20,246 nucleotides of DNA from Treponema sp. (GTDB lineage Bacteria; Spirochaetota; Spirochaetia; Treponematales; Treponemataceae). Position numbers and translations under genes: made by a program. Positions within the stretch are counted from its first letter, which is position 1; each line of letters opens with the position of its first letter. Below, piece after piece: positions 4,336 through 18,679 of the stretch. The DNA lies in contig JAAVAM010000044.1 of the NCBI GenBank assembly GCA_014804085.1, positions 15,505-35,750 of the forward strand, written 5' to 3'. The notes beneath the pieces were generated by a model. It was not told the origin of the DNA. It saw nothing but the letters and a program-made list of their open reading frames with translations, and made no database searches.

Positions 4336-4354
4336 AATCTATGAAGTGACTAAT

Positions 4355-5314
4355 ATGAAAATTGCAGAAAAAGAAATGACAGATTGTTTACCCTCAAAAT
4401 CTGTTTCAATCATTATTGTTAACTACAACACAAAAGAACTGACAAGGCAGTGCCTTGCATCGATATTTGAAAAGACGCATGACATTGATTTTGAAGTCAT
4501 TGTATCCGATAATGGTTCAAATGACGGCTCCATAGAAATGCTGAAGCATGATTTTCCTGAGATTCTGCTTATTGAAAATAAAAAAAATCTCGGTTTTGGA
4601 ACTGCAAACAACAGAGGACTTGACAGGGCAAAAGGAAAATATATTCTTTTCCTAAACAGCGATACACTGTTGTTAAACAATGCGGTAAAAAAGTTTTATG
4701 ACTACTTTGAATCCCATCAAGATGAAAATGTTGGTGCTCTTGGGTGCAACTTGAAAAATGCAAAGGGAGAAATTATACATTCCTATGGACAGTTAGTTCC
4801 AATAAAACAAAGAATAGCCGCTCTGTTTCATACTCTGCTTGGAGTAACAAAAGATACTATTTTTTATCTCATCTTTCACAAAAATAAAGAAATAAAGATT
4901 CGGCATGCATCGTCTTTTTTTATAGGAGAAGTTCCTTATGTTACTGGCGCAGATTTATTCGTAAAAAATGACGAATACGCCCGATACGATGAAAGATTCT
5001 TTATGTACAATGAAGAAGTTGATTTGCAATTACAAATGCACAAAGCCGGCTTGGACTCACGGCTAATAGAAGGTCCGGAAATCATACACCTTGAGGGAGG
5101 ATCTACTGAAAAAAGACACTACAAAATATTTTATCTTTCAACAAAAGGAAACCAGCAACTTTTTCTTTCTTATTATCAGTTTTATGAAAAAAATGAAGAC
5201 AAAAAAGCAATGCTTTTTTTACTAAAACTTATTATCATTCTGATATGGAGTAACCCACTGCTTATAAGATACACCTATAAAAACATCTTGACATTATTGT
5301 CTTTCAAACGATAA
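4355..5314 (+). CDS. Family 2 glycosyltransferase (rhamnosyltransferase-like)
   Basis: 319 residues from ATG 4355. The GT-A nucleotide-sugar fold is clear: SIIIVNYNT (18-26), VSDNGSNDGS (50-59), NLGFGTANNRGLD (78-90) and the metal-binding NSD at 101-103. MYNEEVDLQLQMHKAG later in the protein is the usual catalytic/acceptor block. A hydrophobic stretch near residues 282-314 probably holds it at the inner membrane. It begins 19 bases after the Wzi-like stop and is probably co-transcribed with it. The start is uncertain: GTG 4346 (three residues longer) and ATG 4376 are alternatives, and none has a good ribosome site. It adds a sugar to the lipid-linked repeat unit; donor and linkage cannot be told from the sequence. 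Confidence 0.85.
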   Translation: MKIAEKEMTDCLPSKSVSIIIVNYNTKELTRQCLASIFEKTHDIDFEVIVSDNGSNDGSIEMLKHDFPEILLIENKKNLGFGTANNRGLDRAKGKYILFLNSDTLLLNNAVKKFYDYFESHQDENVGALGCNLKNAKGEIIHSYGQLVPIKQRIAALFHTLLGVTKDTIFYLIFHKNKEIKIRHASSFFIGEVPYVTGADLFVKNDEYARYDERFFMYNEEVDLQLQMHKAGLDSRLIEGPEIIHLEGGSTEKRHYKIFYLSTKGNQQLFLSYYQFYEKNEDKKAMLFLLKLIIILIWSNPLLIRYTYKNILTLLSFKR

Positions 5315-5319
5315 CTTAC

Positions 5320-5348
5320 TTGCACACTAAATGTTTTTATGCTATTAT
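5320..5348 (+). promoter_or_regulatory. Internal promoter for the aminotransferase-flippase operon
   Basis: -35 TTGCAC (5320-5325), 17-nt spacer ending in TGC (extended -10), -10 TATTAT (5343-5348). It lies in the 84-base gap between the GT2 and aminotransferase genes. A weak AAGGG lies about 13 bases before the ATG at 5399. Confidence 0.6.
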
Positions 5349-5398
5349 ATGTTAAAAAATATGTATATTCGTTCTTGTATTAAGGGTAATTTTCATTT

Positions 5399-6508
5399 AT
5401 GAATAATACGATTTTTGTGACATCGCCACTTCTTCCCGATCTTAGTGATTTAACGCCCCTGTTGGAAGATATTTGGCAACGGAAATGGATAACAAATAAC
5501 GGTTATTACTGCAAAGAGCTTGAACGCAGGTTGGCGGATTATCTTGGTGTTCCGTATATTTCGCTTGTGGCGAATGGAACAATAGCATTGTCTATTGCTA
5601 TTCAGATTCTGAATCTTACTGGCGAAGTAATTACCACGCCTTACACATTCTGTGCAACAACGCATTCTTTGACCTTGAGCAATGTGACACCAGTATTCTG
5701 CGATATAGACCCAAAAACTGGCAATATCGACGCGGATAAAATAGAGGCTCTGATAACGGAAAAAACATCGGCTATACTGCCAGTCCATTGTTATGGGAAT
5801 CCTTGCGAAATAGACAAGATACATGAAATTGCAGAAAAACATAATCTGAAAGTTATTTATGACGCGGCACATGCCTTTGCCGTAAAAAAAGATGGAAAGT
5901 CGCTATTAACAGCAGGCGATCTCTCCTGCATCAGTTTTCATGCCACAAAAACATACAATACAATTGAGGGGGGGGGTATTGTGTGTATGGATAAATCGAC
6001 CAAGGATAAAATAGACAGTTTCCGGGATTTCGGAATCATTGATGAGAATACAATAGCAGTCGCAGGAATGAACGGAAAGATGGATGAAATCCGTGCTGCT
6101 TACGGACTTGTCAACCTGCAAAACATCGATTCTGCTATATCAAAAAGAAAGACTATCGCAACGCTGTACAGAAAGGAACTTTCAGACATTGTAGGTATAT
6201 CTCTGTTGCCGGAAGAACCAAACACTGAATACAACTATTCCTATTTTCCTGTTTTTATTGACAAAAAAGAATACGGGCTATCAAGTGATGAGCTTCAAAT
6301 CAAGCTGAAGCAAAATAATATTTTTGCACGAAGATATTTTTATCCACTTATAAGCAATCTGAACATATACAGTTCATTACCATCCGCAAACAGACAAAGA
6401 CTGCCGGTAGCGAACCGTATGTCAAATCAAGTCCTTTGCCTGCCAATTCATCATGATCTTGCACTGGATAATGCCAACAAAGTAATAGAGGTTATAAAGG
6501 CAAAATGA
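5399..6508 (+). CDS. DegT/DnrJ/EryC1-type sugar aminotransferase (VioA/FdtB-like)
   Basis: A 369-residue PLP enzyme of the usual length for the family. K184 in SFHATKTYNTIEGGG is the expected PLP lysine, D155 in YDAAHAF the pyridine-nitrogen partner, and TPYTFCATTHS (80-90) the cofactor/phosphate region. The whole sequence closely follows the pattern of VioA, which makes dTDP-4-amino-4,6-dideoxyglucose, including the RRYFYPLIS and NRMSNQVLCLPI blocks; FdtB-type 3-aminotransferases are related, so the regiochemistry is not settled. It would supply an amino-deoxy sugar for the surface glycan. No 4,6-dehydratase or thymidylyltransferase gene is in the window, so that substrate must be made elsewhere. 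The stop overlaps the next start (ATGA). A G9 tract after the catalytic lysine may switch the gene on and off. Confidence 0.9.
   Translation: MNNTIFVTSPLLPDLSDLTPLLEDIWQRKWITNNGYYCKELERRLADYLGVPYISLVANGTIALSIAIQILNLTGEVITTPYTFCATTHSLTLSNVTPVFCDIDPKTGNIDADKIEALITEKTSAILPVHCYGNPCEIDKIHEIAEKHNLKVIYDAAHAFAVKKDGKSLLTAGDLSCISFHATKTYNTIEGGGIVCMDKSTKDKIDSFRDFGIIDENTIAVAGMNGKMDEIRAAYGLVNLQNIDSAISKRKTIATLYRKELSDIVGISLLPEEPNTEYNYSYFPVFIDKKEYGLSSDELQIKLKQNNIFARRYFYPLISNLNIYSSLPSANRQRLPVANRMSNQVLCLPIHHDLALDNANKVIEVIKAK
5968..5976 (+). repeat. G9 homopolymer inside the aminotransferase gene (candidate phase-variation tract)
   Basis: Nine consecutive G residues encode E190-G191-G192-G193 in an otherwise AT-rich gene. 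Gain of one G gives a stop (TAA) after a handful of codons, and loss of one G gives a TAG about a dozen codons later. Either slip removes the C-terminal half of the enzyme. Confidence 0.7.
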
Positions 6509-7494
6509 ACTGCGCTCCCATAATCATTCCGACACTTAATCGATACTCACATCTCAAAAACCTTATAGACAGTTTGCTTCTAAATAATTTGGCTGAAAAG
6601 ACCGAGCTCTTTGTCGGACTTGATTATCCGCCAGAAGAAAAATATGTTGAAGGATACCATAAAATTCGTGATTTCTTGAAAAATCTAAAAGGCTTCAAAT
6701 CTGTAAATGTTATTGAACGTAGTGCAAATATGGGTGCCATTGAAAATATAAAAGATTTGATTAGAATAGTTTTGGAAAAGTTTGATGCTTTTATATTTTC
6801 AGAAGATGACAACGTTTTTTCTCCCTGTTTTCTGGAGTATATAAACAAAGGACTTGAAAAATACAAAGATGATAAGAATGTTCTTTCAATAGCCGGCTAC
6901 GCCTATCCCGTTGCCATGCCGGAATCTGAACATACCGTAATAAAAATGCAACGCTATTATAGTGACTGGGGCTTTGGCATGTGGAAGGATCGATATATAG
7001 AACTTCGAGATACTATAAATCAGTCTTATTTTGACAATCTGTTTAAAAATCCAAAACTTACGAAAAAATTACGCGAAAAAAGCAAGAAAAACTATGTGTA
7101 TGCCTTTGGACTTTGCACGCCGTCGAAAGCAAATATTCGTCCTATGGACTATACGAGCAGCATATATCAGATAATCAATGACCGATACAGCATAATGCCA
7201 AAAATATCTCTTGTAAAAAACAACGGTTGGGACAATTCAGGGATACATTGCAAGGATTCGGACGCAAAAGATTTTGCTATAAAGAATCTTTTTATAAATC
7301 AAAAAATTTCAGAAGCAAAAACATTTGATTTGTACAGCGTCTCCGATGCGGAATCAGACATCGTAAACAAACGATGTGATAAATCGCTTATAGGAGCATT
7401 TGATAAAGCTTATTACAAGAAAGTTCGGGTAAAGGAAATCCTGTTCAGATACGGAATATTGGATATATTCAGAACATTGTTGCGGAAGAAATAG
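6505..7494 (+). CDS. GT-A fold glycosyltransferase (GT2-like)
   Basis: A 329-residue protein starting with IIIPTLNRYSHLKNLIDSLL (6-25), the N-terminal strand-helix of nucleotide-sugar transferases. The metal-binding motif is SEDDNVFSP (E100-D101-D102). YYSDWGFGMWKDRY (151-164) resembles the W-rich acceptor loop seen in related transferases. There is no signal peptide or membrane segment, so a cytoplasmic-face enzyme is expected. It overlaps the aminotransferase stop by four bases (ATGA), implying translational coupling. It probably adds a sugar, perhaps the amino sugar made by its neighbour; that pairing is inference from adjacency. Acceptor and linkage are unknown. Confidence 0.8.
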   Translation: MNCAPIIIPTLNRYSHLKNLIDSLLLNNLAEKTELFVGLDYPPEEKYVEGYHKIRDFLKNLKGFKSVNVIERSANMGAIENIKDLIRIVLEKFDAFIFSEDDNVFSPCFLEYINKGLEKYKDDKNVLSIAGYAYPVAMPESEHTVIKMQRYYSDWGFGMWKDRYIELRDTINQSYFDNLFKNPKLTKKLREKSKKNYVYAFGLCTPSKANIRPMDYTSSIYQIINDRYSIMPKISLVKNNGWDNSGIHCKDSDAKDFAIKNLFINQKISEAKTFDLYSVSDAESDIVNKRCDKSLIGAFDKAYYKKVRVKEILFRYGILDIFRTLLRKK

Positions 7495-7495
7495 A

Positions 7496-9049
7496 TTGAA
7501 GATAGAGCGTTCTAAAAACACTGCCAGAAATTCTTTCTGGGGAATTTTAAGTACCATATTACTCATTCTGTTTCCTTTCATAAATAGGACTGTTTTAATA
7601 AAATTTCTTGGTGCAGAATACCTTGGTTTAAACGGACTGTTTGCTTCTATCTTGCAAATGCTGAATCTTACTGAATGCGGATTTTCCAGCGCAATTATAT
7701 TCAGTATGTTCAAGCCAATTGCGAACGACAACAAAGAAGAAATATGCGCATTGCTTGGTTTTTACAAAAGGGTGTACCGCATTGTCGGAGGCATAATTTT
7801 TATTGCAGGAATATGCTGTATACCTTTCTTGAATTTCATAATATCAGGAACAATTCCTGCTGGAATGAACATTCATATTATTTATCTCATTCACCTTGCA
7901 AATACATCTGTCAGTTATTTTCTGTTTGCCTATAAAAATGCATTGCTGTCCGCACATCAGAGGAATGACATTCAGCATAAAATACTTATGGTATGCAGGA
8001 TAGGACAGTTTGCTTTACAACTTTTGAGTATACTTTTCTTCAAGAATTTTTATCTCTACACATTTTGTATGGTGATATTTACCGTCTTGAATAATTTAAT
8101 AACATCAAAAGTTGTTTCATCGACTTATCCCGAATATTATTGTTCTGGAAAAATAAGAAAAGAGCAAAAGGATGAAATAAAAGAAAAGGTATCTGGGCTC
8201 ATCATTATAAAGCTTGCTGGAACAACAAGAGATTCATTGGACAGTATTTTCATTTCAAAGTTCATGGGCCTTACCTCTGTTGCAATATTCAGCAATTACT
8301 TCTACATATTAACAGCAGTGCATGGTGTCATACAAGTGATAGCGACAAGTATGTCGGCAGGAGTCGGAAACAGTATTGCAACCGAATCAAAGTTAAAGAA
8401 CTACCAAGACTTCCGAAAGATTATGTTCTTATATCTTTGGATTGCATGCTGGTGCATATCATGTATGGCAAATTTGTATCAACCGTTCATGCAGTTTTGG
8501 GTTGGTACTGATTTGATGCTGGATTTTAGCATTGTCATCCTGCTTTGCATTTATTTTTGGCTACAAACTATTGGCGACATAAAAGGGATCTATACAGGCG
8601 CATTGGGTCTATGGTGGCAATGCAGATTCCGGGCAATCGCCGAGACACTCTGTAATTTTGTACTAAACTACATTTTCGTAAAAAACTTCGGGTATGCAGG
8701 CATCCTGTTCGCTTCTGTGCTGACCCTGTTGTTCGTTAATTATATATATGATTCATTCATATTGTTCAGAAATTATTTTACGGAATTTAAAATAGCACGT
8801 TATTTTTTGCAGCACTTGCTCTATTCTCTTATATGTGCCGCCATAACTGCCATTTGTTTTATTATGACAAAATTCATTACTATAAGTAATTCTTACTTAT
8901 CATTTTTGCTCAAAACCATAGCGATTACACTCATGGCAAACAGCCTATTGTTTTTTATCTATAAGAAAACAGATATTTTCAAGCAGTCCGCAAAAATTAT
9001 GGCGACTATATTGCCAACAAAACTGAAAAGGAGATTCACCGTTTTATGA
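7496..9049 (+). CDS. Wzx-type oligosaccharide flippase (MOP superfamily)
   Basis: A 517-residue polytopic membrane protein with about 12-14 hydrophobic helices. It translocates undecaprenyl-linked repeat units across the inner membrane. The N-terminus KIERSKNTARNSFWGIL followed by FINRTVLIKFLGAEYLGLNG, and LQMLNLTECGFSSAIIFSMF a little later, are hallmarks of this flippase type. The start is TTG at 7496, one base after the previous stop and preceded by GGAAGAA. TTG is accepted because the KIER-KN N-terminus is characteristic of the family and the next Met lies well inside the conserved region. The gene overlaps the next by four bases. No Wzy-like polymerase is evident in the window, so polymerisation may be encoded elsewhere or the glycan may be a short oligosaccharide. 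Confidence 0.88.
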   Translation: MKIERSKNTARNSFWGILSTILLILFPFINRTVLIKFLGAEYLGLNGLFASILQMLNLTECGFSSAIIFSMFKPIANDNKEEICALLGFYKRVYRIVGGIIFIAGICCIPFLNFIISGTIPAGMNIHIIYLIHLANTSVSYFLFAYKNALLSAHQRNDIQHKILMVCRIGQFALQLLSILFFKNFYLYTFCMVIFTVLNNLITSKVVSSTYPEYYCSGKIRKEQKDEIKEKVSGLIIIKLAGTTRDSLDSIFISKFMGLTSVAIFSNYFYILTAVHGVIQVIATSMSAGVGNSIATESKLKNYQDFRKIMFLYLWIACWCISCMANLYQPFMQFWVGTDLMLDFSIVILLCIYFWLQTIGDIKGIYTGALGLWWQCRFRAIAETLCNFVLNYIFVKNFGYAGILFASVLTLLFVNYIYDSFILFRNYFTEFKIARYFLQHLLYSLICAAITAICFIMTKFITISNSYLSFLLKTIAITLMANSLLFFIYKKTDIFKQSAKIMATILPTKLKRRFTVL

Positions 9050-9867
9050 ACAAGAGAATTAAAGAACAGATTAGAGAAAAAATAACCGATTTCATATTCC
9101 GTTCAAAACTGATGTCCGAAAAGACTAATATTATGCTCAGGCATATTGATTATGTCGTCTCTAGTCAGTCCAATAAAAACAAAAAAGTGCTGTACACTTG
9201 CATAACAGGCAATTACGTTCCGTTGCTTTTGCACAAATACGTTGCAGATGACTATGATTATGTCTGTTTTACAGACAGTGAGACATTGCTTAATTATAAT
9301 TATTACGGTGCATGGAAGATAAAGCCACTTGCATTCAGCAAATTGGACAATACACTAAACAACAGATGGCATAAAACTCATCCACACATACTGTTCCCCA
9401 AGTACGAAGAAAGCATATACATAGATGGGAACATTTGCTTGAATTCAAGTTATTTTATAAGAGCCGCAGAAGAAAAAAAAATGGATATTGTTGTGCCACG
9501 ACACTGGAGAGATGATTGCATCTACAAAGAATGCGACAATGTTATGGAAGTCATTGTTCCCTCTGGCGGTGAAAAAAGAGAGAATGTTGAGAGAATGAAA
9601 GACTTTCTTGAAAAAAATAATATGCCGCATAATTATGGTCTCAATGAAAACAATTTTTTATATAGGAAGCACAATAATTCGTCCGTCATAACCATTATGG
9701 AAGAATGGTGGGATTTTATAGAGCATTATACAAAACGAGATCAACTTTCATTTGCGTATATATTATGGAAAAATGGCATTAGACCGGAGGAAATCAGCAT
9801 TCCGAATTTGAGGAATGCTGATTCAAAGGATGTGCTGTTTATATGCCACAGGAAAACACGGAGCTGA
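9046..9867 (+). CDS. DUF616-type putative glycosyltransferase
   Basis: 273 residues. After a basic N-terminal 40 residues it has VLYTCITGNYVPLLLHKY (48-65), DYVCFTDSE (71-79), WKIKPL (90-95), H109-K and ESIYIDGNICL (122-132). These are the block order of the DUF616/TOD1-like glycosyltransferase family, in which the DG(N) segment replaces a classical DxD. The family acts on surface or cell-wall glycans; the donor is unknown. It overlaps the flippase stop (ATGA) and is the last gene of the plus-strand operon before convergent genes. An A9 run lies at 9473-9481, and a 12-bp inverted repeat lies inside the last 80 bases of the gene. Confidence 0.78.
   Translation: MNKRIKEQIREKITDFIFRSKLMSEKTNIMLRHIDYVVSSQSNKNKKVLYTCITGNYVPLLLHKYVADDYDYVCFTDSETLLNYNYYGAWKIKPLAFSKLDNTLNNRWHKTHPHILFPKYEESIYIDGNICLNSSYFIRAAEEKKMDIVVPRHWRDDCIYKECDNVMEVIVPSGGEKRENVERMKDFLEKNNMPHNYGLNENNFLYRKHNNSSVITIMEEWWDFIEHYTKRDQLSFAYILWKNGIRPEEISIPNLRNADSKDVLFICHRKTRS
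9792..9823. repeat. Perfect inverted repeat within the 3' end of the DUF616 gene
   Basis: Arms AATCAGCATTCC (9792-9803) and GGAATGCTGATT (9812-9823) around an 8-base loop. No T-tract follows on either strand, so it is not a normal intrinsic terminator. It could protect the 3' end of the mRNA or mark an old insertion boundary. Confidence 0.5.
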
Positions 9868-9958: not shown

Positions 9959-10903
9959 TTAATACTTTTGCGTTTTCAAATGTTTTCCAATATATCCAAT
10001 GTAACATTTTTTAGTGTTTTTTATAGGAAGAAAGTACAGTCTGGTTTCAAATTTGCCGAAAAACTTTGCGTGATAGAAAAAATATTCTTTAGTACCATCT
10101 GGTAATTTAACACATCTATGTTTCTTCAAATTAGGTTTTTGTTTTACAGTATCAGATTCATCAGAGACATTAATCCCTAGTTTTTTTAATTCAGCAAATG
10201 AAAATGTGTCTTGAAGTGAACTAAAATAAGTGTTCAGTGTATCCAACTGTTCTATAATTTTTGCAATATGATTTCTTTCTGGATTTTCATATAAACAATG
10301 CTTCGTTATATCGCATTTAATTAAATTCGGAAATAAAGAATCCCACTGTTCCCATAAGTCCTGCCCTGAAGAAATGGTGTTAAAAGATTTTTTTCTATTA
10401 GTCAAAGCAACTTTTTGTAATGATATGATACCAGAAATTTGTGACAGTTCTTTTTTTACAGTAATAAGCTCATCATTTTCATTTATGGTTTCAAAATTAA
10501 AAAATATATTTTCTTTGTTCCAAATACTGTTAGTATTTAGACTTAAAATATAATCGCATCCTCTGTCAAAAGCCAAGCCTGCACCTTTTGAAACATAAAC
10601 TTTACCATTTAATTCAATTTTAGCATCTGTCAGAGGGGCTTCCACTGAAGAAAAATATTTTCCAACAAGACTTCTTAAAAATATTTTATTTTCATAATCA
10701 ATTTTAGAATCATTTAGCCAGTTTTGAATAATCGGTATATCAATAGGTATTGATTCATTAGTAATAAAACCTTCGACAATTTTTTTACACTGAGCCTCTT
10801 TTAACAGAGAAAGAAAATTTAAAATAATTTGATTTGCTGATTCATATGAAATAGAATCAGCAAAATCATTATGTATTGAAATTTCATTGAAAGGTACATA
10901 CAT
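9959..10903 (-). CDS. Unrecognised protein, third gene of the DUF262-ATPase operon
   Basis: 314 residues, no signal peptide or membrane segment, moderately charged. I do not recognise the N-terminal two thirds. The last 55 residues contain a Y-x-H-A-K-F segment, then a run ending TRLYFLPI, then CYIGYIGKHLKT. I have an impression of this H-K ... R-x-Y/H-F ... IGYIG-HL pattern from small RelE-like modules in proteins next to conflict-system ATPases, but that similarity is from memory and weak. The gene starts one base after the ATPase stop, so the two are almost certainly co-translated. In such operons the least conserved gene is often the effector or the specificity factor; which one applies here cannot be said. 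Confidence 0.7.
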   Translation of the reverse strand: MYVPFNEISIHNDFADSISYESANQIILNFLSLLKEAQCKKIVEGFITNESIPIDIPIIQNWLNDSKIDYENKIFLRSLVGKYFSSVEAPLTDAKIELNGKVYVSKGAGLAFDRGCDYILSLNTNSIWNKENIFFNFETINENDELITVKKELSQISGIISLQKVALTNRKKSFNTISSGQDLWEQWDSLFPNLIKCDITKHCLYENPERNHIAKIIEQLDTLNTYFSSLQDTFSFAELKKLGINVSDESDTVKQKPNLKKHRCVKLPDGTKEYFFYHAKFFGKFETRLYFLPIKNTKKCYIGYIGKHLKTQKY

Positions 10904-10904
10904 T

Positions 10905-12020
10905 TTAAAACAATTCCATCAAAGCTTTATCCCATTCATCAAAGAATCCATCTGGCCAATCAGATAATTTTCCGTTTTCTAATATCTGAGGGGAAGATTT
11001 CTTGTATTCGTAATATGTTCCAAAAGTCTTATCTTCCATTACTTCTCTATAAAAATAATTGAGACGAGTTTGCAACCTATCAATTATTTTTTGTTTTACA
11101 GACAATCTTATACCATTTAATAAATGATCGCTGTGTGTTTCAACGATAACTTGAACACCTCCAGATGCTGCACGAGAAATCAATTCTCCCATCTTTCGTT
11201 GACCTTTTGGATGCAAATGCGCTTCAGGATTTTCCACAATAACCAAATCTCCATTTTTTGCTTTTAATAAGGCAACAACAATTGGCGCAACATAACTCAA
11301 ACCAAAACCTACGTTTAGTGGGGAATAAGATTCATTTGAAAAACCATATTGCAAAGAAACTATTCCTGTTTTTTTATCAATACCTGATTTTAATGAAATT
11401 CCAGGACTGATTTCAGAAACCCAAGCATTAACTTGCTCAATAAGTTTTCTACTCTTACATGATTCATGCATTATTTTGGGATTATCTACATTTTCGTCAG
11501 ATTTTATTGCTAGGTAATCTGCAAACAACTCTCCTCTTATACCTACTTGATTATTTTCAGTTACATCATAATAGGAACCTTCATAATATCGTTGAGGTCC
11601 TATTCGCGCTGCTGACACATATGCAAATGAGTTTTTGAAAAGATTTACATTTGAAATAAATGATTCATTTATTAAACTGGCAGATTCATCTAATTCAAGA
11701 AAATCTGATTCAGCGGCATATTTGTACTTAAACAAAGCTTCAATTTCATCAGAGCATATTGCAAATCCGAATGAATCTTCCTCACTCATCCGATTCATTA
11801 CATCATATCCTGTTCCTAATTGAATGTAATCACCATTAAGATGCAATCCTTTCTGAAGCGAATTATTGGAGTATGATTGGCGAAGAAGTAATAAAATTTG
11901 TATGATGCTAGATTTTCCCATACTATTGATTCCAGCTAAAACGTTCAAATTCGATAATTCTAGTGAAAGGCTCTTGAAACATTTGTAATTTTCTAATCTA
12001 ATTTGATTTATCATCGCCAT
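10905..12020 (-). CDS. AAA ATPase with DUF3696 C-terminus (ABC/SMC-like, OLD-like core)
   Basis: 371 residues. IRLENYKCFKSLSLEL (7-22) is the usual first strand of SMC-like ATPases. Walker A is GINSMGKS (30-37), the signature-like block LNVGFGLSYVAPIV is at 235-248, Walker B is LVIVENPEAHLHP (259-271), and the switch histidine is in ETHSDHLLNGIR (294-305). The end, LSDWPDGFFDEWDKALMELF, is characteristic of DUF3696. All catalytic motifs are intact, so ATP hydrolysis is expected. No TOPRIM domain follows, so it is not a complete OLD nuclease. It overlaps the DUF262 stop by one base (TAATG). ATG 12014 is an alternative start. Such ATPases commonly act as sensors or motors in defence systems; the role here is inferred from family and context. 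Confidence 0.88.
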   Translation of the reverse strand: MAMINQIRLENYKCFKSLSLELSNLNVLAGINSMGKSSIIQILLLLRQSYSNNSLQKGLHLNGDYIQLGTGYDVMNRMSEEDSFGFAICSDEIEALFKYKYAAESDFLELDESASLINESFISNVNLFKNSFAYVSAARIGPQRYYEGSYYDVTENNQVGIRGELFADYLAIKSDENVDNPKIMHESCKSRKLIEQVNAWVSEISPGISLKSGIDKKTGIVSLQYGFSNESYSPLNVGFGLSYVAPIVVALLKAKNGDLVIVENPEAHLHPKGQRKMGELISRAASGGVQVIVETHSDHLLNGIRLSVKQKIIDRLQTRLNYFYREVMEDKTFGTYYEYKKSSPQILENGKLSDWPDGFFDEWDKALMELF

Positions 12021-13267
12021 TATCCCTCAATAAAATTATTTACAAGATTAAAGACAGTATTTATTCTGTTATTGACAGATGTTTTATCTGAAGCCTTAAT
12101 ATAATTCATAAAAGTATAATCAGAAAATAAATTAAAGAATGCTGTTTGTACCTCACTCTTTTTATTAACAAGGATATCAATTTGTTCATTAGACAATTTA
12201 TTTAGTATATGAGACCACATTTCAAAAAATGATTTATTCACAGGTCCTCGCCTCCCATTTATAACTTTTCTAAATGCATACTGCTCAAATAATTGATAAG
12301 CATAATTCATATTTCGAGAAAACTTTTCTTCAATGTCATTTAATTGATCAGAAGAAATTTTGCCAAGATAATCCATACCACTATTCAAAAAGTCATCTAG
12401 ATTCCCTGTATAATCATCAAGATTAAGTTCTGTAAAAATTACATACCGAAGGCAAAATTCTCTGTCTAACATACGGGTAGGCTTTATACTGTTTCCAGTT
12501 GCCTTGAGAAATTGATTGTTCTTAGACAGTTTTAATAAAAATTCACTAGCCTGTCCTTGATAAAGAGCATTTCGAATTTCCTGAGGCTCAAGAACCAGTC
12601 CACCAGTATTAATACGTTTGAAAATATTGAATTTGACATTTTTGGGAGTTGTCGGTTTTACAATATAAGCATAAATATTTGTTTCTTCCAAACGCCGTTG
12701 CAAAGAACGGGGAAGTTTTTCAAATGTCAATCCATTCAAATCTTTTAAAAACTCCATCCCAATTAGTTTCAATGATTGATCAACTGCAAATTCTTTTAAT
12801 GTAGAAACACGCTGCAAACCATCAATTATTTGCCATTTATCATCATTTGAAGCGTCAAAATAGAAAGTTGGAAGCGGTATTTTCAATAAAAGAGATTCTA
12901 TTAATTGACTTTTTTGTTTTGAAGACCAAAGCCCTGGCTTTCGTTGAAATGAAGAATCCAACTCCAATTCTTCATATTTAATTTTCTTCAAAATGCTGTC
13001 AATTGGTAACATTTTACTTTCAATCTCAATTTTTGACGGATCGAAAGGTATGACATTTGGATCATTACCTGAAGTTATATCTTGATCATCAATTTCAACA
13101 TCACCAGTAATAACCTCAATGCCTTCATCAGCAAAGATTTCCATAATAGTAGGAATTGCATCTGTCTCTACTTTTTTTAAAGAAATCAATATCATTGATA
13201 AATTTATTTTGTAATTTTGACTTTTTGCAATTTCTATTAATGAATCTATATCCTTGTTATTATCCAT
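12020..13267 (-). CDS. DUF262 (ParB/Srx-like) protein with sigma-1.1-like N-terminal domain
   Basis: 415 residues. Residues about 90-300 form a DUF262 domain: LELDSSFQRKPGLWS (101-115, with FQR 107-109), IPLPTFYF (130-137), IIDGLQRVSTL (147-157, the DGxQR motif), then FKRINTGGLVLEPQEIRNAL. DUF262 is the N-terminal half of GmrSD-type type IV restriction enzymes and is linked to nucleotide-dependent DNA cleavage. No C-terminal DUF1524 HNH domain is present; the C-terminus is helical. Residues 5-57 look like sigma-70 region 1.1 (SLIEIAKSQNYKI, then EIFADEGIEVI), followed by an acidic linker. The gene is first in a three-gene operon with its own promoter. AGGAG lies at 13285-13281, 13 bases before the ATG, which is rather far. 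Confidence 0.85.
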   Translation of the reverse strand: MDNNKDIDSLIEIAKSQNYKINLSMILISLKKVETDAIPTIMEIFADEGIEVITGDVEIDDQDITSGNDPNVIPFDPSKIEIESKMLPIDSILKKIKYEELELDSSFQRKPGLWSSKQKSQLIESLLLKIPLPTFYFDASNDDKWQIIDGLQRVSTLKEFAVDQSLKLIGMEFLKDLNGLTFEKLPRSLQRRLEETNIYAYIVKPTTPKNVKFNIFKRINTGGLVLEPQEIRNALYQGQASEFLLKLSKNNQFLKATGNSIKPTRMLDREFCLRYVIFTELNLDDYTGNLDDFLNSGMDYLGKISSDQLNDIEEKFSRNMNYAYQLFEQYAFRKVINGRRGPVNKSFFEMWSHILNKLSNEQIDILVNKKSEVQTAFFNLFSDYTFMNYIKASDKTSVNNRINTVFNLVNNFIEG

Positions 13268-13355
13268 AAAAAGATTAAAACTCCTATTTTAACAATATCC
13301 TCATCCATCAAGTTTGGTAACAAAATGTTGTCATTTTTTATCAAAGTAATAGTCC

Positions 13356-13389
13356 ATTATAGTATAGCATAAAAATATGCTTCAAACAA
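13356..13389 (-). promoter_or_regulatory. Promoter of the DUF262-ATPase operon (two overlapping registers)
   Basis: Minus strand: TTGTTT (13389-13384)-17 nt-TATACT (13366-13361), and, sharing bases, TTGAAG (13385-13380)-18 nt-TATAAT (13361-13356). Either predicts a leader of about 80 nt before the ATG at 13267. The 22-nt-periodic repeat region lies immediately upstream. Confidence 0.6.
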
Positions 13390-13418: not shown

Positions 13419-13603
13419 CTGGATGCACCGGCAAACCTTACTGGATGGATAATCCATCCAGTAAGGAATTTTTTCTCCGTTCGAGCGCTTTTTAAACCCA
13501 TACAGCCTGAATTTGAGTTCCATCCTTACTGAATTTCCACGCCATCTAGCAAGGATTTTTCCCTTAATCCAGCCTGAATTTCCATGCAAAGCAGACTGAA
13601 TTT
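13419..13603. repeat. 22-nt-periodic degenerate repeat region
   Basis: The core CTGGAT or CTGAATTT recurs at 13419, 13441, 13507, 13529, 13574 and 13596. The spacings are 22, 66, 22, 45 and 22, that is multiples of about 22. A degraded copy (AAGGATTT) lies at 13551, and AAGGAATT at 13463 falls in the same phase. It fills the stretch between the terminator at 13617 and the operon promoter, with no credible gene. The 96-codon minus-strand frame across it looks like a by-product. Confidence 0.6.
13436..13466. repeat. Perfect 15-bp palindrome with one-base centre
   Basis: Arms CCTTACTGGATGGAT (13436-13450) and ATCCATCCAGTAAGG (13452-13466). On the plus strand it is followed by AATTTTTTC and so has the form of an intrinsic terminator, but no plus-strand gene lies upstream. 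It is built from the same CTGGAT core as the surrounding repeats. Confidence 0.8.
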
Positions 13604-13648: not shown

Positions 13649-13676
13649 CGAAAACTGTCTTGTATCCTACAGTTTT

Positions 13677-14450
13677 CTATGCAAGCCGGAACTCGCCTTC
13701 AAACACATACTCCCTGGTGTCTTTTGCAAGCGTTTTTCCCGAAAGATGCTGTGTCCGTATCATAATCTTGTATGTTCCCGCCGCAAGCTCCGAAGGGACG
13801 ACGCAGCACAAAGAGCTGGGGTTGCTCCGGCCGATTTTATCCGCTCCAAGCCGCACCGTCTTTGACTCGTCTTCTGTATTCACAAAATACAATCCCACGT
13901 CTTCGTTCTCTCCTGCTATGGTAAGGTTCGCGCCTTTCACCTCAAGAAAACCGTTCTGCGTGAGCGTGTCTGAGCCGCCGCTCTCAAGGTCATGCACTTC
14001 CGTAATCGTTGGCAGAATGGTGTTTCCTTGGCGGAGTGTGGGCGTCACCTCTTTTATGATAGGTTTCATCTTTGAGCTTGTGTTGCAGTTCAATGTGACA
14101 GAATGCCGCTCCGGACTGTAGGGGTCGTTTTGGGAAATGAATGAGCCCGAAAGACCAAGAGTACATCTCGTAACGCCGTCATCCACTGTGCAGCCGGTGA
14201 GAAGTCGTGCAATCTTCGCGTTCCGAAAAAGCGCGGCGACTTCCAAAAGCGTTTCCTTTGTCAGCCCGGATGCAAGGCCGGCGGCGATAATGTCGCACGC
14301 CAAATCCTCGTCGGTGCATGTCCCCTGATTGATGATTCGCGCAAAATAGGCTGAGCCTTTGCCCGAACCGAAATTGTTCTTGTAGAGTGCGAACGGCACT
14401 TCGTTTGATTTGTGTTCTGCTTTAGCAGCATTTAAGGTATTTATATTCAT
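13677..14450 (-). CDS. HU/IHF-like DNA-binding protein with DUF4469 Ig-like domain
   Basis: 257 residues. About 20-125 resembles the HU-like domain of Bvu_2165-type proteins (SAYFARIINQGTCTDEDLA, then LTKETLLEVAALFRNAKIARLL). About 130-255 resembles the DUF4469 Ig-like fold, with the GFLEVKGANLTIAG block and DVGLYFVN. Family knowledge: such proteins are found in Bacteroidetes and some spirochaetes, and their function is poorly known. The start is fixed by GGAGGTG seven bases upstream of the ATG. A consensus TTGACA-17-TATAAT promoter lies about 265 bases upstream, so the mRNA has a long leader with two short ORFs and a large operator-like palindrome. The gene diverges from the COG1106-type ATPase. 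A role in regulating the shared region is possible but unproven. Confidence 0.75.
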   Translation of the reverse strand: MNINTLNAAKAEHKSNEVPFALYKNNFGSGKGSAYFARIINQGTCTDEDLACDIIAAGLASGLTKETLLEVAALFRNAKIARLLTGCTVDDGVTRCTLGLSGSFISQNDPYSPERHSVTLNCNTSSKMKPIIKEVTPTLRQGNTILPTITEVHDLESGGSDTLTQNGFLEVKGANLTIAGENEDVGLYFVNTEDESKTVRLGADKIGRSNPSSLCCVVPSELAAGTYKIMIRTQHLSGKTLAKDTREYVFEGEFRLA

Positions 14451-14822: not shown

Positions 14823-14909
14823 TCGAATAATGCGAAGAACGTTTGGCTTGCAACGTTCTCATTGCTTTGTGCGGAGCGGCGTATGCCCCGACTGCTTTTA
14901 GGAGAAAAC

Positions 14910-16253
14910 ATGCTCGTATCGTTTTCCTGTGGGAATTTCTTGTCGTATGATTCCGTCCAGACGCTCAGTCTGAGGGCGGCAAAAAAACTCCGCACCAAAA
15001 AAGAGCACTTCTCATGCTCCAAGAACGCCGGAAACATCCTGAAATTCGCGGCGATGTACGGCGCGAACAGTGCCGGAAAATCGAATTTTTTCAAGGCGAT
15101 GAACGTAATGCGGGGATTCGTCCTCTCCGGCCACCTTGTGCAGAATTCCGCGGAACTGTACTGCCGCATAAAAAAGCAGAACATCACAACGCCTTCTTTC
15201 TTTGAAATCTGCTTTCTCGTTGACGATGTTCCGTACACCTACGGCCTGAACATTGACATGCAGCACAAGCTTGTCCTGTCGGAATGGCTGTTTTTTACCA
15301 AGGGAGAGACAAGGCAGTATCTTTTCAACAAAGAGAGCGTGGATTCCGGCATTGCCTTTGGCTCGGCTCTTGCCGACTGCGCGGAAATACAAGTCCTTTC
15401 GAATATTTTTTCCGGCGGCGAAAGCCCGTTCCTGTATTGCATGAACCACAACACGAAGTCGTTTTATGACAAGAATCCCAAAGCCCGGATTTTGCAGAAA
15501 GTTTTTGAATGGTTCGCCCTGCATTTTGAGGTCATCTACCCGGAACAGCCGATAAGCGACACCGCCCTTTTGGACAATCCTGCGACACTGAAAGAATACG
15601 CGAAGTTCCTCGGCATGTTCGGAACGGGAATCGTTGACGTGGCAAAGGAAGAAGTAAGCGAGGACAAGGTGAAATCAAACCTTTCCGTTGTTGACCGGGC
15701 GAACATGGAGTTTCGGATGAACTTGGTCAGGACGAACAATCTGCTAGGTAGGGAAAAACGCGAGTGGTCGGCAGTAATCCGCAACCGGGCGAATATATTC
15801 ACCATAAAGATGGATACGAGCGGGATAGCGAGGTATTATGTGCTGAAATTCATGCACCACTATGGCGATGAAAAGGTCGCCTACGAGATGCGCCGCGAAA
15901 GCGACGGCACGTACCGGCTGTTCCAGCTGCTTGACGTGCTGATGACTGCAAAAGACAAGGTTTTTGTCATTGACGAGATAAGCCGATGCATGCACCCCCT
16001 TTTGACAATCAGATTCATAGAGGAATTCTTAAACCGTGCGGCAGAGCGTCCGGTACAGCTTATCGTCACGACGCACGAAACGCGCCTGATGAAGCATGAG
16101 TTCCTGCGCCGTGACGAAGTGTGGGTATGCGACAACGCCGACGACGGTTCGAGCAAGCTCTCTAACTTTGATGAAAAACAGGTCCGCATAGACAAGGTTA
16201 TGGATCAGAACTATATGGAAGGGGATTTTGGCGGGATTCCACGGTGGCGGTGA
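14910..16253 (+). CDS. COG1106-type AAA ATPase (RloA/AbiL-I-like)
   Basis: 447 residues. SFSCGNFLSYDSVQTLSL (4-21) is the opening strand of this family. Walker A is GANSAGKS (51-58), the SDGTYRLFQL block (331-340) stands in the signature position, Walker B is VFVIDEI (351-357) and the switch histidine is in VTTHETRLM (386-394). The end YMEGDFGGIP matches the G-x-F/Y-G-x-x-P finish typical of the group. Relatives pair with an RloB-like protein in abortive-infection loci; none follows here, so this is an orphan or works with a distant partner. The start is chosen for AGGAG at 14900-14904, five bases upstream; ATGs at 14862 and 14883 lack such a site. It is transcribed divergently from the HU-like/DUF4469 gene and may share its operators. 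Confidence 0.82.
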   Translation: MLVSFSCGNFLSYDSVQTLSLRAAKKLRTKKEHFSCSKNAGNILKFAAMYGANSAGKSNFFKAMNVMRGFVLSGHLVQNSAELYCRIKKQNITTPSFFEICFLVDDVPYTYGLNIDMQHKLVLSEWLFFTKGETRQYLFNKESVDSGIAFGSALADCAEIQVLSNIFSGGESPFLYCMNHNTKSFYDKNPKARILQKVFEWFALHFEVIYPEQPISDTALLDNPATLKEYAKFLGMFGTGIVDVAKEEVSEDKVKSNLSVVDRANMEFRMNLVRTNNLLGREKREWSAVIRNRANIFTIKMDTSGIARYYVLKFMHHYGDEKVAYEMRRESDGTYRLFQLLDVLMTAKDKVFVIDEISRCMHPLLTIRFIEEFLNRAAERPVQLIVTTHETRLMKHEFLRRDEVWVCDNADDGSSKLSNFDEKQVRIDKVMDQNYMEGDFGGIPRWR

Positions 16254-16324
16254 AAGTGCGAGGAGAAAAGCACCCATTTTTCTATCGATTATTTAAGCTT
16301 CTGTTCAAAATGGACAAAAAGCAT

Positions 16325-16330
16325 TATACT
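16325..16330 (+). promoter_or_regulatory. Possible -10 box for the GT4 gene
   Basis: TATACT, 30 bases before the ATG at 16360. The best -35 at 17 nt is a weak TGTTCA (16302-16307). A good ribosome site AAGGGGA follows, upstream of the start codon. Confidence 0.4.
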
Positions 16331-16359
16331 ATAAACCTACAAAAACAAGGGGAAACACG

Positions 16360-17550
16360 ATGCGATTGTTATATGATTTATCTGCGACACAGCCATCTCC
16401 CGAAAGCAAATTCCATGGGGGCGGCGCTTATGGTGAAATCGTTTTCTTCAAGCTACTTGAATATCTGAACAAAATAACACTGGTTGCATATTATGACGCG
16501 CAGTCCTATATAAATCCTGATATTGTGGAAGCCGCAAAAAAACGCGCCGTTACGCTATATGACTTACATGAAATCTCCGTTGCAGAAATCATACAAAAAG
16601 AAAGGATTGACAGAGTTTATTCTGCGATGCTGAACCTGAATCAAAAACTTCCCTTGGGCAATGTTCAGGTATATACAACTGTCCATGGACTGAGAACACT
16701 AGAGATGCCGTTCAATTCCATAATGCTTTCATACGCATCGTCTTTGAAAGAGAAAATAAAATTTCTCTTGTTTATGACAGTCGTGCGAAAATCCTATTTG
16801 AAAAAACTATCTGAAATAAATGGAAAGTTGGTAAATGATGATAGAATTATGGTCATCACGATTTCAAACCATTCCCTTGCTTCAATAAAATCTTTTTTTC
16901 CAAGTACTATCAATAAGCATATTCCCGTATTCGCATCTCCTACTTTTGCACAGTTGGATAATTATACAGTCGTCAAAAACACGGATACGGCACATGCAGT
17001 TTCTTTGCATTCATTTTGCGTAACGGAGAAAAAGTTCTTTTTGATTACCAGCGCCGCCCGTTGGACAAAAAATGCGCTGAGAGCCGTCCGCGCGTTTGAC
17101 GAGCTTTTCTCCGATTCTATTGCGACTGATTTTAAAGTCGTGGTTACCGGTGTCACAAACAAAAGCATATTCACCAAAAAACTGAAAAATCCAGACAACT
17201 TTGTTTTTCTCGAATATGTAAATCGTGATGTACTGCAAATCCTCACGGAAAATGCCTACAGTTTCATATATCCTTCACTGAATGAAGGATTTGGCTACCC
17301 GCCGATTGAAGCCATGCAATACGGAGTGCCCGTAGCGGCATCAGGAACTTCCTCTATACCGGAAGTATGCGGGGATGCCGTGCTTTATTTTGATCCGTAT
17401 TCAATATCCGAAATAAAAAATAGGATTGTACAGTTGTTGGACGTTGGCATATATAATCAGCTGACAGAAAAATCAAAGAAACGGTATGAAGTTATTTCTG
17501 CAAAGCAAAAAAGAGACTTGACTCTCCTCGCTGAATACATTATCAGCTAA
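16360..17550 (+). CDS. GT4-family (GT-B fold) glycosyltransferase
   Basis: 396 residues. The N-terminal acceptor domain starts MRLLYDLSATQPS, with the glycine-rich HGGGAYGE (19-26). TSAARWTKNALRAVRAFDEL (230-249) corresponds to the usual R-x-x-KN-x-x-x-x-V-x-AF block. The C-terminal donor-binding motif is E309-GFGYPPI-E317 (E-x7-E), followed by EAMQYGVPVAASGTSSIPEV. It is a retaining transferase using a nucleotide sugar at the cytoplasmic membrane face; donor and acceptor are unknown. The start is supported by AAGGGGA about eight bases upstream. The gene is AT-rich like the 4355-9867 cluster although it lies beyond the defence-like block, suggesting both belonged to one locus. Confidence 0.88.
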   Translation: MRLLYDLSATQPSPESKFHGGGAYGEIVFFKLLEYLNKITLVAYYDAQSYINPDIVEAAKKRAVTLYDLHEISVAEIIQKERIDRVYSAMLNLNQKLPLGNVQVYTTVHGLRTLEMPFNSIMLSYASSLKEKIKFLLFMTVVRKSYLKKLSEINGKLVNDDRIMVITISNHSLASIKSFFPSTINKHIPVFASPTFAQLDNYTVVKNTDTAHAVSLHSFCVTEKKFFLITSAARWTKNALRAVRAFDELFSDSIATDFKVVVTGVTNKSIFTKKLKNPDNFVFLEYVNRDVLQILTENAYSFIYPSLNEGFGYPPIEAMQYGVPVAASGTSSIPEVCGDAVLYFDPYSISEIKNRIVQLLDVGIYNQLTEKSKKRYEVISAKQKRDLTLLAEYIIS

Positions 17551-17602
17551 ATTTCAGATACTTTCTGTAAAATCTTGCTTGCATATACAGACTTAAATCC
17601 TG

Positions 17603-17631
17603 CTGACACGCCCGCGAAAATATGCTATACT
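17603..17631 (+). promoter_or_regulatory. Promoter of the epimerase-GT8 operon (leaderless)
   Basis: -35 CTGACA (17603-17608), 17-nt spacer ending TGC (extended -10), -10 TATACT (17626-17631). The ATG begins at 17639, seven bases after the -10, so the mRNA should start at about the start codon. There is no Shine-Dalgarno. Confidence 0.75.
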
Positions 17632-17638
17632 TACTAGT

Positions 17639-18679
17639 ATGCAGAACATATCACTTTCCAATAAGACAATCCTCGTGACGGGAGTCGCGGGCTTTATCGG
17701 CAGTTTTCTTTCCAGGCATATCCTTGACACCTTTGAAGGCGCGCGCGTTATCGGCGCGGACTGCATCACGGACTACTACGACACGTCGCTCAAGGAAGAG
17801 CGGCTCAAGATGCTCTCGCAGTACGGCGAACACTTTGTGTTCCGTAAGATTGACATTGCGGACAAGGCTGCGCTGGACACGCTGTTTTCCGAATGCAAGC
17901 CGCACATCGTCGTGAACCTTGCGGCGCAGGCGGGCGTCCGCTATTCCATCACGAACCCGGAAAGTTACATCCATGCGAACATCATTGGCTTCTTCAATAT
18001 TCTCGAAGCCTGCCGCAACAATCCGGTGGAGCACCTTGTGTTCGCCTCGTCGTCAAGTGTCTACGGCACGAACAAAAAAGTCCCCTATTCCACGGACGAC
18101 AAGGTTGACAATCCCGTCTCGCTCTACGCCGCGACAAAAAAGTCGAACGAGCTGATGGCGCACGCCTACTGCAAGCTCTACAAGATTCCGGCGACCGGGC
18201 TTCGCTTCTTCACCGTCTACGGACCGATGGGGCGGCCGGACATGGCATACTTCAAATTCACGGACAAGCTCGTGCGTGGCGAGCCGATTCAAATCTACAA
18301 CAACGGCGATATGTTCCGCGACTTCACGTATATCGACGACATCGTGGCGGGAATTGCCGCTGTCATGCAGAAGACTCCCGAAGAGACTGAGGACGGCGCA
18401 CCGTACAAAATTTACAACATCGGCAACAGCAGGCCGGAAAGCCTCATGCACTTTGTGGAGACGCTGGAACAGTGCCTTATGCGCGAAGGCGTGATTTCTG
18501 CGCCGGGAAAAAAGGAACTGCTCCCAATGCAACCGGGCGATGTCTACCAGACGTTCGCCGATGTCTCGGATTTGGAAAAGAATTTCGGCTTCAAGCCGTC
18601 AACACCGCTTGAAACAGGGCTTGCACACTTTGCGGCATGGTACAGGGAATTCTATCGGGGCAAAGGTTTGCTGTCATGA
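17639..18679 (+). CDS. UDP-glucuronate 4-epimerase (NAD-dependent, extended SDR)
   Basis: 346 residues. NAD-binding motif TGVAGFIG (14-21), ASSSSVYG (136-143) and catalytic Y163-x3-K167 in SLYAATKKSNE. The MGRPDMAYFKFT segment and the C-terminal QPGDVYQTFADVSDLEKNFGF block are features of the UDP-glucuronate 4-epimerase branch, which makes UDP-galacturonate, rather than of GalE. The enzyme is cytoplasmic and supplies a uronic-acid donor for the surface glycan. It is GC-rich and core-like, unlike the AT-rich genes before it. It has its own leaderless-type promoter and overlaps the next gene by four bases. Substrate assignment rests on family pattern; other UDP-sugar epimerases of the same branch remain possible. 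Confidence 0.88.
   Translation: MQNISLSNKTILVTGVAGFIGSFLSRHILDTFEGARVIGADCITDYYDTSLKEERLKMLSQYGEHFVFRKIDIADKAALDTLFSECKPHIVVNLAAQAGVRYSITNPESYIHANIIGFFNILEACRNNPVEHLVFASSSSVYGTNKKVPYSTDDKVDNPVSLYAATKKSNELMAHAYCKLYKIPATGLRFFTVYGPMGRPDMAYFKFTDKLVRGEPIQIYNNGDMFRDFTYIDDIVAGIAAVMQKTPEETEDGAPYKIYNIGNSRPESLMHFVETLEQCLMREGVISAPGKKELLPMQPGDVYQTFADVSDLEKNFGFKPSTPLETGLAHFAAWYREFYRGKGLLS

Follow-up and report, generated by a model that had tools for sequence, protein, structure and literature searches.

Menshen has been described as a DUF262 system without DUF1524, in which resistance is lost when the DUF262 gene is mutated or deleted, and a predicted OLD-family nuclease/TOPRIM is mentioned for it (PMC10952713, accessible portion). 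Another DUF262 arrangement, ptuXYZ, was described as a novel operon in which the genes of a DUF262 protein and of a PtuA-like ATPase are joined by that of a two-domain protein, PIN-like and catalytically dead in its N-terminal half and YoeB-related in its C-terminal domain (Gerdes 2025, PMC11980606, accessible portion); 17 ptuXYZ operons were drawn there, B. ovatus and a Flavobacterium being named, and the word Menshen is absent from the text of this article as available to us. In this study, we analyzed a stretch of 20,246 nucleotides from a contig of the spirochaete Treponema sp., the whole of which is hereafter referred to as the window. Judging from their sequences, three adjoining genes on its minus strand are a real and intact Menshen (NsnABC) operon, and the locus is a further member of this described system.

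Identity and conservation of the triplet

The proteins of the three genes were matched by the PADLOC models of NsnA, NsnB and NsnC in the order of the genes. Nsn in PADLOC naming is what we take to be Menshen, so that both the identity of the system and a name for the third gene follow from these three ordered matches. The original prediction, made from the DNA letters and their open reading frames (ORFs), had proposed a new candidate defence system with a layout resembling that of Menshen; the comparison was right, and the triplet is a member of that already described system instead of a new one. The third protein had been called unrecognised, which held for Pfam, NCBIfam and PHROGs, where NsnC matched no family, but not for PADLOC, whose models PDLC03879 (141 bits) and PDLC03912 (140 bits) covered nearly its full length, ruling out an unknown third gene and settling it as NsnC. 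A literature search pairing DUF262 with DUF3696 found no paper.

NsnA matched its PADLOC model PDLC03877 over residues 57–413 with 414 bits (E = 1.4e-124), the next best model being PD-T4-2_A with 121.5 bits, and Pfam placed GmrSD_N at residues 92–236 (E = 4.3e-21), corresponding to the ParB/Srx-like DUF262/GmrSD_N domain. The DGLQR motif occupies residues 149–153, and DGxQR was present in all 80 relatives from the genome loci described below. The AlphaFold2 (AF2) model of NsnA had a predicted local distance difference test (pLDDT) score of 88.3, and a Foldseek search of this model against PDB listed ParB, PadC and SspE in its top rows, none of them significant (best E = 0.17). NsnB matched PDLC03878 over residues 3–371 with 390 bits (next best, HEC-03B with 116 bits); Pfam found AAA_15 (E = 1.3e-25), AAA_21 and a C-terminal DUF3696 (E = 1.3e-10), and the GajA, PtuA and OLD models of PADLOC as well as OLD/PtuA chains of PDB matched it far more weakly than the NsnB model did. 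Walker A was kept in 74/74 NsnB relatives, and in the window the Walker A (GINSMGKS) and Walker B-like (LVIVENP) motifs of gene 2 are intact, as is DGLQR of gene 1, in agreement with the first description of the locus. Neither the DUF1524 HNH nuclease domain nor, at E <= 1 in Pfam, any TOPRIM family was matched in the three window proteins. We treat TOPRIM as a variable, not a defining, trait of Menshen; the 20 NsnB that were compared are 343–428 amino acids (aa) long. Regarding NsnC, the AF2 model had a pLDDT of 91.6 and a predicted template modelling score (pTM) of 0.83. When solved structures were searched with an NsnC profile, none matched at E <= 1; with NsnC, phage records gave no match, plasmids gave 2 records, and a single-protein scan of genome contigs gave 42 stretches, none of which was confirmed.

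Conservation of the gene order was evaluated in a collection of one genome per species (84,980 species), which was scanned with an alignment of ten NsnA. Among the best 80 of 518 NsnA relatives, NsnB lay directly downstream of NsnA in 74 loci and a third ORF of at least 150 aa was found in 69; three of the six loci without NsnB end at a contig edge. A DUF262 relative was also found in 731 plasmid records. The 18 places inspected all belong to the 25 top-ranking records, a non-random sample, and 15 of the 18 contained NsnA, NsnB and a third gene. As to individual plasmids, L033 carries an annotated ATPase, and its third ORF, of NsnC type, is truncated where the record ends; in L036 from Klebsiella aerogenes (5999–6784), the gene directly after the DUF262 gene is annotated as encoding a HEPN-domain protein, a pair that differs from the Menshen layout; and L037 has no ATPase-sized ORF adjoining its DUF262 gene. 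In IMG/VR, NsnA-NsnB was found in 13/31 loci and a third ORF in 11/31. On this sequence evidence the triplet is conserved across many phyla; a chance neighbourhood was ruled out by this recurrence, and homologues scattered and unlinked from each other, an outcome that had been considered at the outset, were not what was found.

A same-genus genome contains another arrangement (L011, 2485–5821, minus strand), in which a DUF262 protein is followed by a 167-aa protein, a 350-aa ATPase-like protein and a 214-aa protein; by eye, it looks like a different DUF262 system.

The operon, predicted from spacing, spans 9959–13267 in the order NsnA-NsnB-NsnC with junctions of at most 5 bases (Table 1). It is compact and AT-rich, as first described, with open frames, ATG starts, and GC contents of 27.5–32.5% with 18–22% at third codon positions (GC3), and its orientation is indeed opposite to that of the plus-strand genes at 2602–9867 and 14862–19668. 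In the 14 other window genes that were measured, GC3 was 30–40% in six (five at 4346–9867, one at 16360–17550) and 55–79% in eight. The 1-base overlap (TAATG) and 1-base gap reported originally are present if gene 2 starts at its first ATG, but the second ATG (12014) is probably the start, because 18 of 19 gene 2 homologues align from residue 3, and the gap to gene 1 would then be 5 bases. The single promoter claimed for the operon is unproven: the promoter-like site directly upstream is present, but such sites in the region are not above chance (25 vs 19.1 ± 4.6 in shuffles). Terminator-like sites numbered 4 in the region vs 1.1 ± 1.1 in shuffles, and one of them, a hairpin with a T run at 13649–13624, lies 3' of the minus-strand gene at 13677–14450. 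Just upstream of the operon there is also a perfect inverted repeat (13436–13466; 15-nt arms, 1-nt gap, T tail), a 14-base piece of which recurs once elsewhere in the genome with one mismatch.

Table 1. Positions of the Menshen genes, their domains and the promoter-like site in the window
Feature	Position	Strand	Remarks
Gene 1 (NsnA)	12020-13267	-	415 aa, ATG start, no internal stop
Gene 2 (NsnB)	10905-12020	-	371 aa, ATG start, no internal stop; 369 aa if the start is 12014
Gene 3 (NsnC)	9959-10903	-	314 aa, ATG start, no internal stop; probable effector
NsnA N-terminal domain	13103-13267 (residues 1-55)	-	resembles sigma-70 region 1.1, winged-helix-like
NsnC N-terminal adaptor half	10430-10903 (residues 1-158)	-	FNEIS motif (N6, S9); common to NsnC with different C-termini
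NsnC C-terminal putative toxin domain	9962-10378 (residues 176-314)	-	E249, S250, H278, R288
Promoter-like site	13385-13356	-	TTGAAG-N18-TATAAT; 10/12 consensus matches; directly upstream of the operon

Exchangeable ends of NsnC and NsnA

Variation of the third protein was evaluated with a set of 100 third genes (69 from genome loci, 11 viral, and 20 from the window, plasmids and phylum loci). When the NsnC profile was split, 62 of them matched both halves, 23 the N-terminal half only, 10 the C-terminal half only and 5 neither, the N-terminal half thus being matched by 85/100. The whole window-type profile, which was built from 45 of the 100 genes tested, matched 94/100, and 49 of the 55 outside its alignment, some of these 55 being identical or almost identical to loci in the alignment (L025, L026 and L027 correspond to L099, L091 and L074; also L124, L127 and L109). 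A few third ORFs were doubtful: that of L055 resembles, by eye, an unrelated transporter, that of L078 resembles an NsnB fragment, and those of L092 and L106 seem to be truncated. In the C-terminal half (72 third genes), H278 was kept in 70/70 and R288 in 71/71 of those with a residue there, and E249 in 59/70.

In four Bacteroidota loci, NsnC ends in a YoeB toxin domain (L110, L113, L105 and, by alignment, L114, which is a near copy of L113). Pfam YoeB_toxin was found above its curated cut-off in the three NsnC scanned (E = 6.6e-16, 6.2e-10 and 1.2e-8), and the solved YoeB entry 2a6q matched L110 at E = 2e-10. The N-terminal halves of the window-type and these four YoeB-type NsnC were nevertheless related to each other (hhalign probability 99.1%, E = 5e-19). 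From these alignments we infer that NsnC is modular, consisting of a constant N-terminal adaptor and a replaceable toxin end, and this illustrates a way in which systems of this sort could exchange their weapons. The exchange for a YoeB toxin is the strongest argument for NsnC as the effector and, as far as sequences go, points to this role. For the window protein, a nuclease is our guess because of its His/Arg pattern and its YoeB relatives, and the order of helices and strands in its model might allow a BECR-like fold; the conserved His278 and Arg288 are the residues to mutate.

Further C-terminal types were seen among the third genes. A common domain with the pattern DDHGKD ... NS.PF.P ... 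TDKG.G...TTG was recognized by eye in L071, L075, L077, L083, L087, L090, L096, L104 and L106, and the C-terminus of L071 NsnC is shared with that of a PADLOC CARF_DUF2103 protein (E = 2.3e-7); perhaps this domain is an effector shared by Menshen and CARF proteins. Another type, MDL.D..AQ.LL.....YHGY, was recognized by eye in L052, L053, L079, L084, L085 and L100; it is PDLC03911-like in L052, and no Pfam family was above cut-off in the two that were scanned (L052 and L079). Campylobacter and Klebsiella plasmids carry still another NsnC family, PDLC03880, in a member of which (L032) a phospholipase-D-like MIT_C was weakly matched under its cut-off (E = 0.011), an implausible viral family scoring better (E = 0.0018).

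The N-terminus of NsnA is exchanged as well. In the AF2 model, the N-terminal domain of the window protein is composed of helix-strand-helix-helix-strand, and Sigma70_r1_1 was matched at E <= 0.5 in 15 of 39 NsnA relatives (best, 1.7e-6). This N-terminal extension is common to the window NsnA and many Bacillota, and the phmmer match started at or before residue 10 in 32/80 genome loci. Mrr_N was found in place of the sigma-1.1-like domain in 3 of 10 NsnA scanned, which had been picked mostly for long N-termini (L098, 1.5e-16; L073, 8.4e-14; L108, 2.5e-13). Winged-helix domains are DNA-modification sensors in some restriction enzymes (PMC11037411, accessible portion). The exchangeable N-terminus, sigma-1.1-like in some proteins and Mrr_N in others, points to NsnA as the sensor, i.e. 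the putative DNA-facing part of the system. A testable division of labour is thereby provided, in which the DNA-facing ends of NsnA and the toxin ends of NsnC are exchangeable and the ATPase between them is constant.

Origin and surroundings of the operon

In an NsnA tree of 85 rows, which includes 3 plasmid loci and omits genome loci with NsnA of <330 or >519 aa, the window NsnA paired with that of Kurthia zopfii (L038, operon at 4400–7695, its closest relative) with support of 97/85. The pair nested in otherwise Bacillota sets of 10 rows (96/90) and 11 rows (100/96), and NsnA of other spirochaetes lay far away in the tree. Because of this placement in a Bacillota clade and the base composition, the operon was probably imported horizontally into the spirochaete from a Bacillota-like source, a nearest-hit tree being no proof of it. 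The NsnA model, searched in 58 other genomes in all, matched at E <= 1e-40 in 1 of 35 other same-genus genomes (G021), where the adjoining ORFs look different, and no Menshen triplet was seen by this search in the 35. The NsnC model PDLC03879 was matched in 5/296 genomes of the phylum including its own, the other four being outside the genus, and other NsnC types would escape this model; in three of these four, NsnA is identical to that of named Spirochaetota loci (Turneriella, Leptospirales and Leptospiraceae), which places the host among the spirochaetes. Menshen thus looks rare in this spirochaete genus, which makes the locus a good case of cross-phylum transfer. That the contig as such is a contaminant was ruled out by two flanking window genes, which showed 65–69% identity to same-genus genes; 38 genomes were searched with each, and relatives were present in 3 and 5 others. 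These flank genes are about 95 kb apart on one contig in G018 and on different contigs in G021.

Defence genes near the triplet were counted in 38 loci of at least 20 kb each by comparing 110 ORFs (of 150) adjoining the triplet with 110 ORFs (of 125) at least 5 kb off in the same loci. At E <= 1e-25, 36 PADLOC families were matched near and 13 far, several of which can match one protein. Since the families shown (25 of the 36 near, 13 of the 13 far) come from one protein each, only a handful of proteins were matched on either side. Because ORFs of >650 aa were excluded from the near set, a few of its members are several kb away from the triplet, and at least two ORFs (L052:18173–18553 and L113:2372–3133) are in both sets. 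Suggestive plasmid neighbours are BrxL near the L016 triplet, a BrnT/BrnA pair by L028, and VapC with recombinases by L034.

In the window, a plus-strand gene at 14862–16253 encodes an AAA_21 ATPase that the AbiLi model of PADLOC matched strongly (221 bits), and the next gene, a glycosyltransferase at 16360, is too close to leave space for an AbiLii/RloB-like gene. Relatives of this ATPase at E <= 1e-60 were found in 8/59 genomes of the genus, its own included. Between the Menshen operon and this gene, a minus-strand gene (13677–14450) encodes an HU-like DNA-binding domain and DUF4469 (Ig-like).

Proposed mechanism, rival explanations and known systems

The protein identities, the operon order, the conservation of the triplet and the modular ends of NsnA and NsnC can be read directly from the sequences. 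The best explanation of the locus, which we consider likely, is a Menshen operon, probably acquired horizontally, in which NsnA senses, NsnB relays and NsnC kills or arrests the infected cell, and the window copy would be active against phages. NsnA, with its ParB/Srx-like nucleotide-binding domain and winged-helix-like N-terminus, would contact the DNA of an invader, either directly or in a nucleoprotein complex, and NsnB, an ATPase in which no nuclease domain was recognised, would relay the signal by an ATP-driven change. NsnC, held inactive via its conserved N-terminal adaptor, would then be released or activated, and its freed C-terminal toxin, probably a nuclease (a YoeB-type ribosome-dependent RNase in other branches), could halt phage production. 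The sensor had originally been sought in the ATPase; the domain evidence better fits NsnA as the sensor and NsnB as the transducer.

Several results weigh against this explanation. The best Foldseek matches of the NsnC model, at E = 0.25 in PDB and E = 0.039 in BFVD, were not significant, and Pfam returned only 14 stray families for the 45 NsnC members, one member each (best E = 0.02). The C-terminal half of window-type NsnC was compared with the YoeB domain by hhalign at probabilities of 0.7–0.9% (a thin set of four sequences), and a recognisable YoeB domain in the window NsnC was ruled out, this profile comparison being at background level. Because no family or fold was matched, the label "toxin" for the C-terminus of the window protein is based on where this domain lies and on its exchange in relatives. 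Regarding the sensor, Sigma70_r1_1 scored 16.9 bits in the window NsnA, under the Pfam cut-off of 22.5, and L038, the closest relative, gave no match to it at E <= 0.1. The near/far comparison of PADLOC families revealed no clear enrichment of defence genes next to the triplet. Finally, the DUF262 protein of ptuXYZ is called a putative nuclease (Gerdes, PMC11980606, accessible portion).

This last label would give the effector role to NsnA, for which reason we retain, as rather unlikely, the view that NsnA is a DNA-cutting ParB/Srx-type effector like type IV restriction enzymes and that NsnC senses varying phage components via its changing C-terminus. The GmrSD_N domain in NsnA and the described resemblance of PtuX (DUF262) to ParB/Srx nucleases (Gerdes, PMC11980606, accessible portion) are consistent with such cutting, and a variable protein end may equally mean a variable sensor; however, one of the domains exchanged at the C-terminus of NsnC is a YoeB toxin, an effector and not a sensor, the N-terminus of NsnA itself swaps between sigma-1.1-like and Mrr_N domains, and NsnA lacks a DUF1524/HNH domain, as also noted for Menshen (PMC10952713, accessible portion). 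The occurrence of Menshen triplets on plasmids and of NsnA-NsnB in the 13 IMG/VR loci, together with the absence of a clear defence-island enrichment, would also suit a toxin-antitoxin/addiction or plasmid-competition module, in which NsnA and NsnB restrain NsnC and the main task of the operon is to keep mobile DNA stable or to combat plasmids. Defence systems are, however, commonly carried on mobile DNA. In addition, phage resistance by Menshen is reported to need the DUF262 gene (PMC10952713, accessible portion), and we regard an addiction or competition role as improbable. Little chance is likewise given to a decayed or silent import, whose frames are intact but which is unexpressed in, or incompatible with, the new host: the low GC3 departs strongly from that of most of the window, the promoter evidence is at chance level and the end branch of the window NsnA is 0.74 vs a median of 0.32, but the three frames are open with their motifs intact, and the window keeps the residues that are invariant in the NsnC and NsnA alignments.

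Within the preferred explanation of sensing by NsnA and arrest by NsnC, a bolder version can be formulated, to which we attach very little credence: the sigma-1.1-like domain of this NsnA branch might be a bait for phage takeover of transcription, occupying or mimicking the site on RNA polymerase that belongs to region 1.1, and its displacement by phage proteins or a phage-altered polymerase would signal via NsnB to an NsnC toxin domain (E249/H278/R288) of an undescribed nuclease family and fold.

Compared with Menshen as described, the locus has the same three genes in order, DUF262 without DUF1524, an ATPase and a variable third protein; it differs in that the TOPRIM of PMC10952713 (accessible portion) was not matched in the window proteins and in that the window NsnA has a sigma-1.1-like N-terminal domain. 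The GmrSD/BrxU/SspE type IV restriction enzymes share the DUF262 (GmrSD_N) domain with its DGxQR motif, whereas the window NsnA lacks the DUF1524 HNH nuclease and is accompanied by a separate ATPase and a third gene. PtuA/Septu, OLD and GajA-type ATPases share a related P-loop ATPase core, whereas no TOPRIM or HNH partner was detected in the operon, and NsnB has a DUF3696 C-terminus and matches the NsnB model far better.

The make-up of ptuXYZ, as given in the accessible portion of PMC11980606, is that of the Bacteroidota Menshen loci L105, L110, L113 and L114. Because these loci fit the description and share the NsnA tree with the window, ptuXYZ very probably represents the branch of Menshen that is armed with YoeB, matched here by description and not by accession, and YoeB-type RNase activity thereby becomes testable as a Menshen output. 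If the PIN-like reading holds for the shared N-terminal half of the third protein, FNE(L/I)S, at the end of the first strand, would occupy the place of the first catalytic Asp of a PIN domain. The locus is of interest for the view of NsnC and NsnA as modular proteins, for the probable merger with ptuXYZ and for a toxin-like domain for which the searches here matched no family or fold. With these four loci as stand-ins for ptuXYZ, the N-terminal half of the window NsnC is related to theirs, whereas its C-terminal domain is not detectably YoeB (no Pfam match; hhalign 0.7–0.9%), and the window operon thus shares the adaptor of the ptuXYZ-like branch and differs from it in the toxin end.

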